This document shows, in pieces, positions 4,582 through 10,379 of a DNA stretch of 64,000 nucleotides. Source of the stretch: Halosimplex litoreum (GTDB lineage: Archaea; Halobacteriota; Halobacteria; Halobacteriales; Haloarculaceae); assembly GCF_016065055.1 (NCBI RefSeq), contig NZ_CP065856.1:3967836-4031835 (forward strand), written 5' to 3'. Under the pieces are notes generated by a model that was given only the letters and a program-made list of their open reading frames with translations, made no database searches and had not been told where the DNA came from. The stretch's first letter is position 1, and each line of letters opens with the position of its first letter. The translations under genes and the position numbers were made by a program.

Positions 4582-4587
4582 CTTATG
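4582..4587 (+). promoter_or_regulatory. TATA-like box of xacA
   Basis: CTTATG sits about 27 bases before ATG 4612, the distance expected for a leaderless haloarchaeal transcript. This supports 4612 over the in-frame ATG at 4585, which overlaps the box. Confidence 0.5.
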
Positions 4588-4611
4588 CCGGTCGCGTGCG
4601 GGCAATCGTTC

Positions 4612-5679
4612 ATGGATATACAGGAGTACATGGACGACTTCACGGCGCGCGACTGGCCCCAGGCGGACGAGGGGACGGTTCGGTTCGCGATGGTCGGACT
4701 CGGCTGGTGGACGATGGAGTTCGCCATCCCCGCAACCGAGGTCCTCGACCACCTGGAGACGACCGTCGTCGTCTCCTCGACGACCGAGAAGGCCGAAGGC
4801 GTCGCCGACGAGCACGAGTCCATCGAGCACGGACTCACCTACGACGAGTTCCAGAACGGTGAGGCGACCGACGCCTACGACGCCGTCTACATCGCCACGC
4901 CCAACGCCCTGCACCTCCCCTACGTGGAGGCGGCCGCCGAGTTCGACAAGGACGTCCTCTGCGAGAAACCCCTCGAAGCCAGCACCGAGCGCGCCGAGAA
5001 GCTCGTCGAGGCCGCCGAAGGCGTGACCCTGGGCGTCGAGTACCGGATGCACGTCCAGCCCGCCGTCCGCACGATGCGCGAGCTCGTCGACGCCGGCTTC
5101 ATCGGCGACGTGGCGATGGTCCACGGCAACATGTCTCAGCCCCTGCTGGACATCAACGACAACTACGACCAGTGGCGGCTCGACCCCGACATGGCCGGCC
5201 CCGGCGCCTCGGTCACCGACCTCGGCGTCTACTCCATCAACACGACGCGGTTCGTCATCGACGAGGACCCCGTCGCCGTCACCGCGACGGACTGGTCCGG
5301 TCACGAGGCCTTCGACGACGTACCGGACGAGCGGGCCGCCTTCACCGTCGAGTTCCCCGACGGCGTCGTCGCCGCCTGCACGGCCAGCCAGAACACTCAG
5401 GAGACCAGCAACCTCCGCATCATCGGCACCGAGGGCGAGCTTCTGCTCGAAGACGCCTTCCTCTCCGGCGACCGCGAGCTGACGATCACCCGCGGCGAGA
5501 CCACCATCACCACCGAGTTCGACGGCATCGAGGAGACCCGTCGCTCGCTGGAGTACTTCGGCGACCACCTGCTGACCGGCACGGACATCCACGGCGACGG
5601 CGAGCACGGCATCGTCGACCAGCGCGCCATCGACGCCGTCTACGAGGCCGCCGAGTCCGGCGAACGCGTCGAGCTGTAG
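4612..5679 (+). CDS. xacA: D-xylose 1-dehydrogenase (NADP+), Gfo/Idh/MocA family
   Basis: A 355-residue Gfo/Idh/MocA oxidoreductase. It has an N-terminal Rossmann fold (RFAMVGLGWW, residues 24-33), the EKP motif at residues 118-120, and a C-terminal alpha/beta substrate domain. The N terminus MDIQEYMDDFTARDW and phrases such as DAYDAVYIATPNALHLPYVE match what I know of the haloarchaeal xylose dehydrogenase (XacA of Haloferax, Gfo6 of Haloarcula). The enzyme oxidises D-xylose to xylonolactone in the cytoplasm, the first step of the oxidative path to 2-oxoglutarate. The xylonate dehydratase gene xacD lies 3.5 kb away on the other strand. A pyrimidine-rich stretch just after the stop (5690-5720) could end transcription. 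Confidence 0.88.
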   Translation: MDIQEYMDDFTARDWPQADEGTVRFAMVGLGWWTMEFAIPATEVLDHLETTVVVSSTTEKAEGVADEHESIEHGLTYDEFQNGEATDAYDAVYIATPNALHLPYVEAAAEFDKDVLCEKPLEASTERAEKLVEAAEGVTLGVEYRMHVQPAVRTMRELVDAGFIGDVAMVHGNMSQPLLDINDNYDQWRLDPDMAGPGASVTDLGVYSINTTRFVIDEDPVAVTATDWSGHEAFDDVPDERAAFTVEFPDGVVAACTASQNTQETSNLRIIGTEGELLLEDAFLSGDRELTITRGETTITTEFDGIEETRRSLEYFGDHLLTGTDIHGDGEHGIVDQRAIDAVYEAAESGERVEL

Positions 5680-5795
5680 CGGCCACTCGAACCGTTCTTT
5701 CTGCGCCCGTTCTTTCGTTGCGGACGCTCAGTGCAGTCTGAGGTTGTTGCATTTGGGGTAGCGGTGCGGTTGCGGTGCTGTGCGGTCGGCGCGTG

Positions 5796-5836
5796 CTGTC
5801 GAGCGTGCCCGCCTCGTGGCGGGCCGCTCGAAACAG
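5796..5836. repeat. Long imperfect inverted repeat (hairpin 1)
   Basis: CTGT, CGAGCG and GCCCGCC (5796-5813) pair with GGCGGGC, CGCTCG and ACAG (5818-5836) around a TCGT loop. The only interruptions are a one-base bulge at 5806 and two extra A residues on the right arm. This gives about 17 paired bases, well beyond a simple terminator stem. Confidence 0.6.
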
Positions 5837-5974
5837 TCGCGCGAGGGATGAGAAGCGCAGCCCGCGAGCATCGCAAGAGGCTGGGGAGGTGTGAGGCCGT
5901 CTGCGGTTGCTGTTGTGGTCGCGGTGCGGTCCTGGTGGACTGAAAGGGCGAGGCGCGCTCGCGCCGGTAGTCGT

Positions 5975-6118: not shown

Positions 6119-6291
6119 CACCGTCGACTGCGGTCGCTGTGGTCCGCGTTTCTTTCACGAGACAATTTCTTGGAACTCGCGCTCAACGAGCACGCATACT
6201 GAGCGGACGCGTCTTCCGAGGCTGTCGAACGCGTAGCGGCGCCACACGAATAGCCGAGACGAACGCGATAACAACAGTTCGAAGCAGGAGT

Positions 6292-6320
6292 GGGGCGACC
6301 GGGTGGAGGGCGGTCGCCCC
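6292..6320. repeat. Perfect 10-bp stem-loop (hairpin 3)
   Basis: GGGGCGACCG (6292-6301) and CGGTCGCCCC (6311-6320) are exact inverted repeats around a 9-base purine-rich loop. There is no T-run after it on either strand, so a classical terminator is unlikely. Confidence 0.6.
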
Positions 6321-6513
6321 CGTGTCAGAGGCACAGGTGGATCGGTTGGCGGGCGATGCGACGGTGGCGCAGTCGGAGGGCGGCGTGGGGAGGGCCGAAG
6401 CGTCAGCGGGTGGGGACCTGACAGGGCGACGCGGGACCCGTCGCACCCACCGAACTGCGCGCATCTACTGGTAGCCGGGACGGGTATGTAATTTCTATCT
6501 CGGTACCATCTGT

Positions 6514-6605: not shown

Positions 6606-7346
6606 TCAGAGCTTGTGGCGGAAGGCGTGGAGGACGTTCTGGCCGGTGTCGGTCAGGCGGATCTGTTTCTGTCGGCCGACGCGCTCGACTTCGATGTAGC
6701 CGTCGTCGACGAGCGGGTCGACGATGTTGGCGTTGAGCAGTGCGAACTTCGCCTTGTCGTTGGCGGGGTCGGCGTCGGCGATAAAGGACAGGGCTTCCGA
6801 CTCGGCGTGTTCGATCAGGTCGGACTTCTTGGCGGTGTAGCTGTCGCTGTTGCGCTCTTCGAGGTAGGCGAGGACGGCGACCTGGTCGCGGGAGACCGCT
6901 TCGATGGGGTAAGAGGGAAGCACCACGTCGTCGCGCATGCCCCGCGTTCGCGGGTTCTCCTCGAGGTCGGGGACGTGTTCCTCGGCGCGGACGTAGTAGG
7001 CGGTTGCCTCGGTAGCCATGCAGGCGATGGCGCTGCCGATGGCGGCGAGCTTGCCGCCGCTGGAGACGTTGACGCGGACCACGTCCTGCTCGTGGGCGGC
7101 GGCGACCGTCGTGACGACCGCGAGCACGTCGTAGAGGTCCGAGAGGTTCGTCTCGCGGAAGCGGATGGTCCGGCCGTCGTCCTCGAGTTCCTCGACGAGC
7201 GCCTCCTGGTAGGGAGTCAGCGGGGTGTGTTCCCCGTCGGCGGCGAGGAGGTAGACGGTGTCCGCGTCGTGTTTGCGAAGGGGGCGGAGGATCCGGTCGT
7301 GCTCGTATCCGAGCGGCACGACGTGGACTTCGTCGATGGTTCGCAT
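6606..7346 (-). CDS. CARF-like winged-helix transcriptional regulator (HFX_2341/DUF6293 family)
   Basis: A 246-residue cytoplasmic protein. Residues 1-125 look like the HFX_2341 N-terminal domain: VHVVPLGYEHDRILRPL, an alternating beta/alpha pattern, and a VNVSSGGKLAAI loop near 92-103 that resembles the ligand loop of CARF (CRISPR-associated Rossmann fold) domains. Residues 150-246 form a winged helix (DQVAVLAYLEER, KSDLIEH, LVDDGYIEVERVGRQKQIRLTDTGQ). CARF-HTH proteins such as Csa3 sense cyclic oligonucleotides; whether this one does is inference, and no CRISPR genes lie in the window. ATG 7346 was chosen because upstream residues are Arg/Pro-rich. The divergent neighbour starts 119 bases away. 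Confidence 0.75.
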   Translation of the reverse strand: MRTIDEVHVVPLGYEHDRILRPLRKHDADTVYLLAADGEHTPLTPYQEALVEELEDDGRTIRFRETNLSDLYDVLAVVTTVAAAHEQDVVRVNVSSGGKLAAIGSAIACMATEATAYYVRAEEHVPDLEENPRTRGMRDDVVLPSYPIEAVSRDQVAVLAYLEERNSDSYTAKKSDLIEHAESEALSFIADADPANDKAKFALLNANIVDPLVDDGYIEVERVGRQKQIRLTDTGQNVLHAFRHKL

Positions 7347-7465: not shown

Positions 7466-8329
7466 ATGACGAGCGGTGGACGGAGGGGAACAGGGGCGGA
7501 CTGGTCGCCGACCCACGAGGTGGTGTGTCCGGGCGACTCCGCCGACGCGGTCGCGGCAGACACGCGTCTGGTCGCCGTCGCCTGCGGGTTCGGCGACGAG
7601 GCGCGCCTGACGATGGCGACCGACGACGTGAGCGACCGGAGCCCCCGCACCCAGCGAGTGCTCGACGCGGACCTCGACCGACTCCCCGACGACGCGACCG
7701 ACGGTACGGACCCCACCTGGCGGGCGCCGCTCCCGGAGGCCACCGACGCGCTGGTGAGCGCGCTGACTGTCGACGAGTCCGGGGCGGACGGCCCACTCGG
7801 CGACGCGCGGTGGCGGGTCTGGGACGTGTCGTCGGTCGAGGTCCGCCGCGACGGCCGTCGGATCTACCGGTCGATCCCCCACCACGAGCGGTTCGAACTC
7901 GCCGCGACCGGCGCTCCCGGACTGGTCGACGCCGCGTGCGAGCGACTAGACGACTTGCCCTGTGCCGTCGTCCCGACCGGTCCGGTCGCCACCTGGGGCG
8001 ACGGCGGGGAACTGACACACCGGGGGCTCCGGTTCGAGGGCGGGGCGGGCGCGTCGCTGGCGCACGTCCGCCGAGTCGCAGTCGATCGCGACCGCCGAGC
8101 GATCGTCGTCGACTGGATGCCGACGAGCGAGCGCGTCGGCCGGGACCGCTCTCGCGCGATCCGCGCGCTGTTGCGAGCGTTCGTGTGGAGCGTCGAGCGG
8201 TTCGGTGGGTCGGACTCGCCACCCCGTCGACTCTCGTTCGCGGACGAGGCGAGCTTCCGGGAGGCGGTCGACGGGTTCGAGACGGTTCGCGACCGCGCGG
8301 GATACGACTTCGAAACCGTCGTGGTGTGA
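7466..8329 (+). CDS. Haloarchaeal protein of unknown function
   Basis: A 287-residue acidic protein that I do not recognise. The opposite strand is also open here, but this strand has the acidic composition and codon pattern of its neighbours. It reads as a soluble alpha/beta protein without signal peptide or membrane helix; notable segments are SVEVRRDGRRIYRSIPHHERFELAATGAPGLVDAA split around residue 130 and LRRAVWS-like helices near the C terminus. It is divergent from the CARF-like regulator and ends 44 bases before the Nudix gene, so those two may be co-transcribed. No function is proposed. Confidence 0.65.
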   Translation: MTSGGRRGTGADWSPTHEVVCPGDSADAVAADTRLVAVACGFGDEARLTMATDDVSDRSPRTQRVLDADLDRLPDDATDGTDPTWRAPLPEATDALVSALTVDESGADGPLGDARWRVWDVSSVEVRRDGRRIYRSIPHHERFELAATGAPGLVDAACERLDDLPCAVVPTGPVATWGDGGELTHRGLRFEGGAGASLAHVRRVAVDRDRRAIVVDWMPTSERVGRDRSRAIRALLRAFVWSVERFGGSDSPPRRLSFADEASFREAVDGFETVRDRAGYDFETVVV

Positions 8330-8373: not shown

Positions 8374-9009
8374 ATGGTGAACCTCAGGGACCCCGAGTCG
8401 CTCCGCGAGGAGCCGGGCGTCGACTTCCGCGAGCAGGAACAGGTCGTCGACGCCGAGCAGTTCGAGACGGCCGTGGAGGGCGCCGAGAATCAGAGCGGGC
8501 TGGTCGTCGTCGCGGTCACGGACGAACAGGACCGGCTCCTGCTGGCAGACTCCGAGTGGGTCGACGGCTGGACGCTCCCGAACGGGCCGGTCGGCGCCGA
8601 CGAGGACTGGGCGGTCGCCGCCGACCGCTGGGCTGAAGACGAACTGAGCTTCCCCGTCCAGATCGAACGGCCCGAGCTGGCGATCCGTACCGAGACGCGG
8701 GCCGAGGGCGGCGAGGAGAGCGTCGTCGGCTACACGGTCGCGTTCACCGCGTCGCTGATCCCCGCGATGGGCGGCCCCGGGGGGATGGGGCCCGGCAGCC
8801 CGCCGCCGGGCGTCGGCCCCGACGGGGAAGGCGCCCAAGAAGGCGAGGGGCCACCTGCGGGCGGCGGACCGCCCGGCGGCGGCGGTGGCCCGCCCGGCGG
8901 ACCCGGCGCCGGTCCCATCGCGTCGAACCCCAACCTTGACTGGTTCGACGGCGTCCCCGACGAGGTGGCGCCGGGCCACGACGCGCTCGTGCAGTACTTC
9001 CTGGGCTGA
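8374..9009 (+). CDS. Nudix-fold protein with degenerate catalytic box and Gly/Pro-rich insert
   Basis: A 211-residue protein. Residues 40-130 match the Nudix fold (LVVVAVTDEQDRLLLADS, then GWTLPNGPVGADE). The Nudix box should read GX5EX7REUXEEXGU. Here Gly71, Glu77 and Arg85 are kept, but the next part is WAEDELSF, so the first Glu after Arg is Trp and the conserved Gly is Ser. Metal-dependent pyrophosphatase activity is therefore doubtful. Residues 132-180 are a Gly/Pro-rich low-complexity insert, followed by a normal C-terminal helix region (DEVAPGHDALVQYFLG). ATG 8374 has a weak TATA-like TTTACA about 30 bases upstream. Confidence 0.75.
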   Translation: MVNLRDPESLREEPGVDFREQEQVVDAEQFETAVEGAENQSGLVVVAVTDEQDRLLLADSEWVDGWTLPNGPVGADEDWAVAADRWAEDELSFPVQIERPELAIRTETRAEGGEESVVGYTVAFTASLIPAMGGPGGMGPGSPPPGVGPDGEGAQEGEGPPAGGGPPGGGGGPPGGPGAGPIASNPNLDWFDGVPDEVAPGHDALVQYFLG

Positions 9010-9134: not shown

Positions 9135-10379
9135 TTAAGCAGCCGGATCGAACAGCGTCTCGCCTTCGACCATGTGGTCTTCGACGGTGTCGAGGTCGAG
9201 CGTGACGCCGAGGCCCTTGTCCTCGGGCACTTTCATGTAGCCGTCCTCGATGAGACCGTCCTCCTGGACGAGGTCTTCCCACCAGTCGAGTTCGTAGGAG
9301 TGGTACTCGACGGCCAGGGAGTTCGGGACGCTGGCGCCGACGTGGGCGCTGGCGACCGTGCCGACCGGCGAGGAGACGTTGTGCATCGCGACGGGGACGT
9401 AGTACTGGTTGGCTACGTCGGCGATCTTGCGGGTCTCGCGCATGCCGCCGATCTTCGGCATGTCCGGCGCCACGATGTCGACGGCCTGGTCCTCGATGAG
9501 CCGGCGGTGCTCGGTGACGCGGTAGCGGTTCTCCCCGACCGTGATGGGCGTCGTCGTCGAATCGGTGACCTTCTGCTGGACCTCCAGGTTCTCCGGCGGG
9601 ACGGGGTCTTCGAGCCACCAGACGTCGTAGTCGTCGATGGCCTCGGCCAGCCGCTCGGCGGAGTTGCCCGAGAACGTCCAGTGGCAGTCGAAGGCCACGT
9701 CAGCCCGGTCTTTGACGCGCTCGGTCACCTTCTCGACGATCTCGGCCTTGTGGCGGATCTCGCCCGGGCGGAGGTGGCGGTTGGCGCGGTCTTTCTCGTG
9801 ACCGGAAGGCACGTCCAGGTCGAACTTCAGGGCGTCGTAGCCGAGTTCCTCGACGACACGCTCGGCCTCGTCGGCGCAGGCGTCGGGGTCGGCCTCCTCC
9901 TCGGTGTGGCAGTCGCAGTAGACGCGCATACGGTCGCGGTACTTGCCGCCGAGTAGCTGGTAGGCCGGCACCTCGATGATCTTGCCGGCCAGGTCGTGCA
10001 GCGCGACCTCGATCCCCGAGATGGCCGAAACGGTGACGCCCTCGACCGACCCCTCGCCGGACATCTTCTGGATCAGGTGTTCGTACAGGCGGTCGATGTC
10101 CAGCGGGTTTTCGCCGATGAGGAACGGCGCCATCCGCTCGATCAGCTCGGGGATGCCGGCGCCCCAGTAGGCCTCACCGGTGCCGACGAGTCCCGCGTCC
10201 GTGTAGACCCGAACGAGCGTCCACGGGAAGTTCCCGTCGACCATCGTGGTCTGTACGTCCGTGATCTCGACGTCTCGGCCGCCGCCGCGCTTCGCGTCGG
10301 CACCCATCGTCTCCGCCGACAGTTCCCGCATCGTGTACTCCGCGTTCGGGTCGTGGAGGTCTCTGTAGTCTCGTCCCAT
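9135..10379 (-). CDS. xacD: D-xylonate dehydratase, enolase superfamily
   Basis: A 414-residue mandelate-racemase/enolase-family enzyme. Metal ligands are visible as Asp231 (FDCHW), Glu257 (WLEDPVPPEN) and Glu283 (TVGENRYR), with the general-base Lys in LKFDLDV (Lys185). The opening DPNAEYTMRELSAETMG and the phrase MSGEGSVEGVTVSAISGIE agree with my memory of Haloferax XacD. It turns xylonate into 2-keto-3-deoxyxylonate in oxidative xylose degradation. A TTTAGTA box on the minus strand (about 10404-10411) lies some 28 bases before the ATG, so the mRNA is probably leaderless. It converges with the Nudix gene; the 125-base gap holds an imperfect stem (CTTCGAGTTCGAC against GTCGAACGAGTCGAAG). Confidence 0.9.
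   Translation of the reverse strand: MGRDYRDLHDPNAEYTMRELSAETMGADAKRGGGRDVEITDVQTTMVDGNFPWTLVRVYTDAGLVGTGEAYWGAGIPELIERMAPFLIGENPLDIDRLYEHLIQKMSGEGSVEGVTVSAISGIEVALHDLAGKIIEVPAYQLLGGKYRDRMRVYCDCHTEEEADPDACADEAERVVEELGYDALKFDLDVPSGHEKDRANRHLRPGEIRHKAEIVEKVTERVKDRADVAFDCHWTFSGNSAERLAEAIDDYDVWWLEDPVPPENLEVQQKVTDSTTTPITVGENRYRVTEHRRLIEDQAVDIVAPDMPKIGGMRETRKIADVANQYYVPVAMHNVSSPVGTVASAHVGASVPNSLAVEYHSYELDWWEDLVQEDGLIEDGYMKVPEDKGLGVTLDLDTVEDHMVEGETLFDPAA

Follow-up and report, generated by a model that had tools for sequence, protein, structure and literature searches.

A CARF–winged helix gene of haloarchaea, its adjacent 9-bp repeat array and a proposed antisense RNA

Proteins with a CARF domain are known chiefly as partners of type III CRISPR systems. 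Here we analyse a gene for such a protein in a 64,000-nucleotide stretch of the Halosimplex litoreum genome (the window), whose closest described counterparts are HFX_2341 (Crr) of Haloferax mediterranei and Csa3a of Saccharolobus solfataricus (2wte, 6wxq). HFX_2341 was described in 2024 as repressing many genes, cas among them; its deletion alters many genes, it is reported as a global regulator, its authors suggested cyclic oligoadenylate, c-di-AMP or cAMP as ligands, and its DNA site and its signal are both not known, according to the available portion of the paper (PMC11434293). The protein studied here shares with it a CARF-like N-terminal domain, a winged helix, a haloarchaeal host and the lack of linkage to CRISPR genes, but is a distinct paralogue, and the same portion of PMC11434293 mentions neither an array nor a linked RNA. 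Csa3a is linked to an 18-bp palindrome, twice the length of the 9-bp unit described below, and its sites lie in acquisition-gene promoters and CRISPR leaders, whereas our array would belong to the promoter of a non-coding RNA (PMC8699464, in the part of its text at hand). Both proteins combine a CARF domain with a winged helix and carry a basic residue in the pocket loop; unlike that of Csa3a, our gene does not lie beside cas genes, and its own genome has no type III match.

In the RNAI–RNAII and CopA–CopT pairs, the antisense RNA is perfectly complementary to the loop of a structured RNA. The RNA proposed here resembles them in this respect and differs in that its target, which we call RNA-B, lies at another locus and in that its promoter would stand behind a repeat array linked to a CARF gene. 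A further parallel is CreTA, a CRISPR-regulated RNA toxin–antitoxin, which likewise involves archaeal small RNAs regulating the function of a small RNA; as far as the excerpt of PMC8501985 goes, its RNA guide works with Cas proteins, whereas we propose direct RNA–RNA complementarity and found no Cas protein. Among the matches listed in the open-licence literature, the portions of text available contain no description of the array, the CARF-linked RNA or RNA-B.

The protein family (DUF6293, CARF plus winged helix) is thus already known, and what is new is the array, 3' of the CARF gene, together with the predicted RNA beyond it. The features concerned are the following:

6606–7346, minus strand: CARF–winged helix gene (DUF6293 family), 246 aa
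6499–6549, minus strand: 9-bp repeat array (unit about GTATCGATA), putative operator for the CARF protein, from scans and alignment
6482–6499, minus strand: BRE/TATA-like box GATAGAAATTACATACCC of the RNA gene, a putative promoter element
6220–6466, minus strand: unannotated conserved RNA gene (proposed antisense RNA), its start set by the distance from the TATA-like box and its end approximate
6363–6466, minus strand: 5' hairpin of the CARF-linked RNA, with pairing support from Haloarcula homologues
6389–6410, minus strand: 22 nt CCCGCTGACGCTTCGGCCCTCC, perfect complement of RNA-B
6292–6321, minus strand: terminator-like hairpin GGGGGCGACCG...CGGTCGCCCC, seen in the sequence, a putative terminator

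The CARF protein and its family

A sequence-only reading of the window had proposed a stand-alone CARF-like sensor that carries a winged helix in the manner of Csa3 and is not accompanied by CRISPR genes. The gene is intact, encodes 246 aa and is read on the minus strand, from 7346 down to 6606; the loop quoted in that reading, VRVNVSSGGKLAAIG, is present in the protein. Pfam recognizes both domains of DUF6293, with HFX_2341_N (PF19810) at 140.6 bits (cut-off 30) and the winged helix DUF6293_C (PF22665) at 123.9 bits (cut-off 27), and the PADLOC model CARF3 (PDLC01847) covers residues 1–246 with an E-value of 7e-97. An AlphaFold2 model built from a 36-sequence alignment has a mean pLDDT of 93.0, and the top PDB matches by Foldseek are CARF proteins, namely Csm6 (8jbb), Csa3 (2wte and 6wxq) and the ring nuclease Sis0811 (7pq6). 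Using VIA-align, in which absent families were not taken as evidence, we found Can2 (7bdv; Z 15.1, residues 5–146, rmsd 2.5, 122 aligned), Sis0811 (7pq3; Z 13.7, rmsd 6.2, 186 aligned), Csa3 (6wxq; Z 11.2, rmsd 12.8, 187 aligned) and MepR winged helices (Z up to 11.7, residues 149–246). Taken with Foldseek, this places residues 3–147 among CARF domains, with the Rossmann-like fold and pocket loop of that superfamily, and residues 149–246 among MarR-like winged helices. The architecture suggested from the sequence is borne out, and the rmsd of 12.8 over 187 residues of Csa3 6wxq indicates that the CARF and winged-helix domains are set differently in the two proteins.

In 36 sequences picked from the fetched loci (24 close orthologues and 12 paralogues), H8, E15, R18 and N93 are invariant, and G13, D17, S96, G97 and K99 are at least 90% conserved. 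The conservation of pocket-loop residues makes a nucleotide ligand in the CARF pocket plausible; by analogy with Csa3, the protein is presumably a dimer. Motif 1 of Csa3 is not conserved, being mostly G-(Y/F/H)-E-x-D-R with a variable residue 21 in the place of the Arg. At motif 2 (Leu-X2-Gly-h-Arg) the protein reads V-S-S-G-G-K, in which Gly 97 and Lys 99 are the conserved residues and Lys stands where the motif has Arg. The Csa3 model TIGR01884 (cas_HTH) gives 21.3 bits, with a cut-off of 60.2.

By sequence, the CARF protein is a divergent paralogue of HFX_2341/Crr. It reaches 24.2 bits against the HFX_2341 equivalog model NF051475 (cut-off 500), and the genome of Halosimplex litoreum, which carries three PF19810 genes in total, encodes a separate true HFX_2341 copy at 579.9 bits. 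We refer to close orthologues of the CARF gene (at least 52% identity), found in 50 of the 146 genomes of Haloarculaceae, as class A, and to paralogues at about 40% identity and below as class B. Relatives of the protein also occur on 21 plasmid records, and the 20 matches listed are haloarchaeal, at 30–57% identity. In genus g8 (L080, L081, L083, L087, L089 and L090), a class B paralogue lies near a methylmalonyl-CoA mutase gene, assigned by Pfam in L090 and by clustering in the other loci.

Protein neighbours and the 9-bp array

The divergent gene at 7466 and the Nudix-like gene at 8374 had been put forward as natural partners of the CARF gene, to be judged by whether such neighbours vary freely between genomes. 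With neighbour genes called by a codon-usage script in 61 loci and then clustered, the Nudix-like gene adjoins the class A gene in 7/7 Halosimplex loci and the 7466 gene in six of the seven; neither does so in any of 29 loci of other genera. The protein neighbours thus vary between genera, their adjacency being confined to Halosimplex, and the partnership is not supported. A gene of the same cluster as the Nudix-like one (window 8374–9009) is likewise next to the orthologous class B gene in 7/7 Halosimplex loci (L073, L078, L079, L084–L086 and L088), several of which add canonical Nudix, serine hydroxymethyltransferase-like and GNAT genes. Where the canonical Nudix box is GX5EX7REUXEE, the 8374 protein reads GPVGADEDWAVAADRWAEDE on inspection, with one canonical Glu being Trp. 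Relatives of the Nudix-like gene occur in 63, and those of 7466 in 15, of the 146 Haloarculaceae genomes; Pfam, NCBIfam and PADLOC, searched at E 0.1, gave no match for the 7466 protein, and its AlphaFold model is poor (pLDDT 60).

The conserved neighbour is instead non-coding: a repeat array and, in many lineages, a predicted RNA behind it. AT-rich 9-bp repeats lie in the flanks of class A genes, and in the window the array is found 57–107 nt beyond the CARF stop, inside a 926-nt gap that separates the CARF gene from the convergent Gfo6 gene. We scanned 61 loci, 1.2 Mb in all, with weights for three units and a threshold of 20 of 27; 34 of the 36 class A loci contain a site, or 33 of 35 distinct ones (L056 duplicates L063, and six of the short Haloarcula loci are copies of six long ones; per-genome counts allow for both). 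Each has a single site, never more than 1 kb from the CARF gene, and the two loci missed, L042 and L054, have weaker arrays by alignment. None of the 24 class B loci gave a site, and neither did the 20 kb surrounding the single HFX_2341 locus. As the weights had been set by eye with some of the 61 loci in view, we carried out a fresh test on 40 loci of other families: a single site was found in 28, at most 1.6 kb from the gene, and none in 12, and the reversed-sequence control gave one site in 1.46 Mb. Sites were present in 17/20 loci with at least 52% identity and in 11/20 with less than 50%. The period of nine is distinct in 21 non-redundant loci, each anchored on a TATA chosen by eye, with mean self-matches at lags 9 and 18 of 0.54 and 0.53, as against 0.16–0.31 at the remaining lags from 4 to 20.

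When whole genomes were searched with a pattern allowing up to three mismatches, the only match in the own genome was the window array. The 146 genomes together have 107 matches. Of these, 69 are no more than 1.5 kb from a class A gene and come from 38 of the 50 class A genomes, leaving 12 in which no match is near the gene; the other 38 matches are spread over 13 class A genomes and 11 others, and the backwards pattern totals 17. Such a site, beside the gene and rare elsewhere, has the distribution expected of a dedicated operator. A pattern search of viral contigs gave 25 matches, none of which encodes a relative of the CARF protein; RNA-B matches no phage record, and a viral origin was rejected.

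The position of the array relative to the gene differs between lineages. Among the 34 Haloarculaceae sites, 26 are on the 3' side of the CARF gene and 8 on the 5' side (L052, L053, L057 and L064–L068), and in L057 and L064–L067 the array stands in front of a divergent HTH gene of winged-helix type (Pfam on L065) rather than an RNA. In nine loci of other families (L119, L121–L123, L125, L126 and L132–L134) it abuts the CARF start: with the window protein as guide, the start projects to 20 nt from the end of the site, and the likely ATG follows that end by a few nucleotides. In 11 other-family loci the site is 680–870 nt 3' of the CARF gene; in the nine of these inspected (L127, L129, L135, L137, L140–L142, L144 and L149) it stands before what is probably a convergent gene, of about 190–260 aa, and the two convergent-gene proteins scanned matched no Pfam family above cut-off. 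Since the array precedes protein genes or the CARF start in some loci, the antisense RNA would be one target among several. In L127, L135, L142 and L149, a segment of 13–22 nt antisense to RNA-B lies beyond the 3' end of the convergent gene.

The predicted RNA behind the array and its complement

In an element alignment of 28 of the 36 class A loci (L056, L058–L063 and L068 were left out), the array is followed by a TATA-like box, with ungapped spacing in 27 of 28. About 20–27 nt past this box, a conserved RTGCGC is seen in Halosimplex, Haloarcula and several other loci, which we take as the RNA start. In the seven Halosimplex loci, the next 240 nt are much more alike than the sequence beyond, and the resulting predicted RNA of about 245 nt (about 6466 to 6220) is apparently non-coding: the only long reading frame, from the ATG at 6464, is broken by indels after about 25 codons in other Halosimplex, on which ground a peptide was rejected, although a very short conserved peptide may be encoded in the region.

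The element extends beyond the genus. A profile of the seven Halosimplex elements alone reaches other genera across 150–270 model positions, with matches to L049 (Haloarcula; 8e-16), L044 (8e-14), L050 (1e-13) and L071 (2.5e-13); the profile includes the array, which raises these scores, and the matches extend far past it. Only iteration 0 of nhmmer was used, as hits were force-extended in iterations 1–3 and their E-values thereby inflated. Rfam has no match above threshold in the RNA region, the sub-threshold one being a Mycobacterium model on the opposite strand at 5778–5854.

Folding supports the 5' hairpin, which in 14/14 sequences is more stable than the mean of its shuffles (z -1.7 to -4.2), by the smallest margin in the window (z -1.7, with 10 of 200 shuffles as good). 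Because the MAFFT hairpin alignment A2 was poor, a covariance model, R1, was built from Haloarcula sequences only. From 19 short loci (L015–L033), 16 had the hairpin as judged by a search expression (L023, L032 and L033 did not), 15 were aligned after removal of the near-duplicate L029, and 13 were kept, L016 and L017 having a misaligned 3' arm; the middle part of the RNAalifold structure is doubtful. In these 13 hairpins, the proportion of cells that pair is 96%, compared with 87% in shuffles, and 25 cells are changed on both sides, as against 10.2 in shuffles, which leave relatedness uncorrected, and 2 to 12 in slid structures; counted as pairs with both-side change, there is no excess (6 versus 5.4 in shuffles). 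R1 finds one copy near the gene in 17 of 19 class A genomes of the genus Haloarcula, 13 of which supplied the model's own sequences and four of which are independent (G030, G031, G034 and G038), and none in the 13 Haloarcula-genus genomes without class A. The two misses, G012 and G021, carry a divergent form (L049 and L050). R1 does not find the window's own hairpin, its one Halosimplex match being L043 (E 0.42), and it gives weak matches (E 0.05–0.10) in G138 and G080, both without a class A gene.

The most constant part of the hairpin loop is CUUCGGCCCUCC. A search of eight Halosimplex genomes for its 12-nt complement, GGAGGGCCGAAG, returned 26 matches, with one for the backwards control: 12 were read as RNA-B and 5 as the CARF-linked RNA, the remaining 9 being unexplained or due to chance. 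RNA-B is a separate unannotated intergenic element, present in at least one copy in all eight genomes, in which a TTTAAG-like box is followed by UGACGCUUCG(U)CUUGGAGGGCCGAAGCGUCAGCGGGGACCAAU and usually a second hairpin. Its predicted fold has a GGAGGGC loop (z -3.8, -1.5 and -3.1 for three copies). The core is identical over 43 nt on a plasmid of Haloarcula sp. GH36 and over 38 nt on pHLAC01 of Halorubrum lacusprofundi, in both cases with no annotated feature, in a PLSDB gene table that carries no RNA genes. RNA-B has no Rfam match; six viral contigs match a 16-mer and lack the rest of the core, and were taken as chance. Four of the eight Halosimplex genomes (G089, G090, G093 and G094) hold two different RNA-B copies with an exact match to the 12-mer (L164–L187).

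The window RNA and RNA-B share 22 nt of perfect complementarity, whereas 60 shuffles reach at most 10, so that the complementarity to this distinct conserved RNA is beyond chance. In all 16 distinct Haloarcula genomes examined, 14–16 nt are complementary to RNA-B, and in four of them (L048, L071, L018 and L025) there are two segments, one of 11–15 nt to the loop and one of 15–16 nt to the linker. Counting both strands within 2 kb of the CARF gene, at least 14 nt antisense to RNA-B are found in 18/36 class A, 7/40 other-family and 1/24 class B loci, and at least 12 nt in 22/36, 15/40 and 2/24, respectively; 12 of the 36 class A loci have no antisense stretch longer than 10 nt in that range (L051–L053, L057, L058, L061, L062 and L064–L068). 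Whole-duplex energy is far from that of shuffles in the window (z -7.8) and not distinct from it in L044 (z -1.1).

A proposed switch and its alternatives

We think it probable, by a modest degree, that the CARF protein uses the array to control an antisense RNA directed against RNA-B. Computation supports the fold, the array and its linkage to the CARF gene, the conserved non-coding element with its pairing, and the complementarity to RNA-B; the steps that join them are proposals. The factor, presumably dimeric and acting locally, would bind the adjacent 9-bp array, which has no second copy in its own genome at the stringency searched, and thereby control one promoter giving a small RNA of about 245 nt. 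Its pairing partners on RNA-B would, in the cell, be the GGAGGGCC loop and 3' stem, to which some Haloarcula would add the linker through a second segment. A ligand in the pocket, nucleotide-like and probably not made by Cas10, would set the production of antisense RNA and hence the amount of free RNA-B. The 18-bp palindrome of Csa3a corresponds to two 9-bp units, which would fit dimers on two units, as far as the excerpt of PMC8699464 goes. Since the array is upstream of the TATA-like box in the window and over the CARF start in other families, regulation may be of either sign. Archaeal activators often bind just upstream of a TATA-like box, and the position over the CARF start is where a repressor would bind.

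With so precise a candidate operator array, the DNA target can be tested directly, and the ligand likewise by gel shift. Should the link to RNA-B hold, the CARF repertoire gains a new output, RNA controlling RNA, and two conserved RNAs without an Rfam match come to light. We extend the proposal further only tentatively and with some doubt: a CRISPR-free CARF protein would sense a nucleotide signal, its response would be an antisense RNA rather than a nuclease, this RNA would open and neutralize a conserved haloarchaeal RNA with a Shine–Dalgarno-like GGAGG loop, and this second-messenger-to-antisense-RNA switch would operate in many haloarchaea. RNA-B itself would possibly act on ribosomes or as an RNA toxin.

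The array could also be an autoregulatory operator only, through which the CARF protein would control its own gene and any promoter that happens to be adjacent, the RNA being a by-product whose likeness to RNA-B is inherited and not functional. That the array abuts the CARF start in nine other-family loci, that the transcription unit behind it varies between lineages and that a third of the class A loci (12/36) lack the complementarity all fit such an origin; the window array, however, lies 3' of the CARF gene and cannot be its promoter, the hairpin and anti-RNA-B segment persist where the sequence after them does not, and four of 16 Haloarcula carry two separate segments matching RNA-B. On balance we consider it unlikely. 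Still less probable, in our view, is global regulation by the CARF protein, as by HFX_2341/Crr, with the array as no more than its strongest site. The two proteins have the PF19810 domain in common, and many genes change on deletion of HFX_2341 (PMC11434293, in the portion available), but the pattern has one match in the own genome, the equivalog model separates the CARF protein (24 bits, cut-off 500) from the true copy of that genome (580), and the 20 kb around the latter hold no array.

It would be most surprising if the protein were a type III CRISPR effector, that is, a regulator sensing cyclic oligoadenylate that stands alone in most genomes. Its CARF fold is what such a sensor would have, and in G042 (genus g4; L061 3617–15031) a Csm1-type Cas10, a Csx1-CARF-like gene (24.5 bits, slightly below the cut-off of 24.7) and a Cas6 gene lie about 6–11 kb from the class A gene, with Cas10 at 10–11 kb in G043 and G045. 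Against this, in G042 genes for CDC48, LarC, a RadA/B-like protein and an HTH protein, and one unknown gene, stand between the cas genes and the CARF gene, Cas10 lies on a different contig in G040, and Cas10 (PF22335) is found in only 4 of 146 genomes, all of genus g4, as against 50 with class A. Models of Cas1, Cas3-HD and the Cas10 palm gave no match in the own genome, so that the absence of CRISPR genes read from the window holds as tested. In 46 of the 50 class A genomes the ligand would accordingly not be made by Cas10, an argument that covers Cas10 of the PF22335 kind only.

The CARF gene stands between genes for Gfo6 (D-xylose 1-dehydrogenase, 4585–5679) and a mandelate-racemase-family, sugar acid dehydratase-like protein (9135–10379), which plausibly belong to pentose catabolism.
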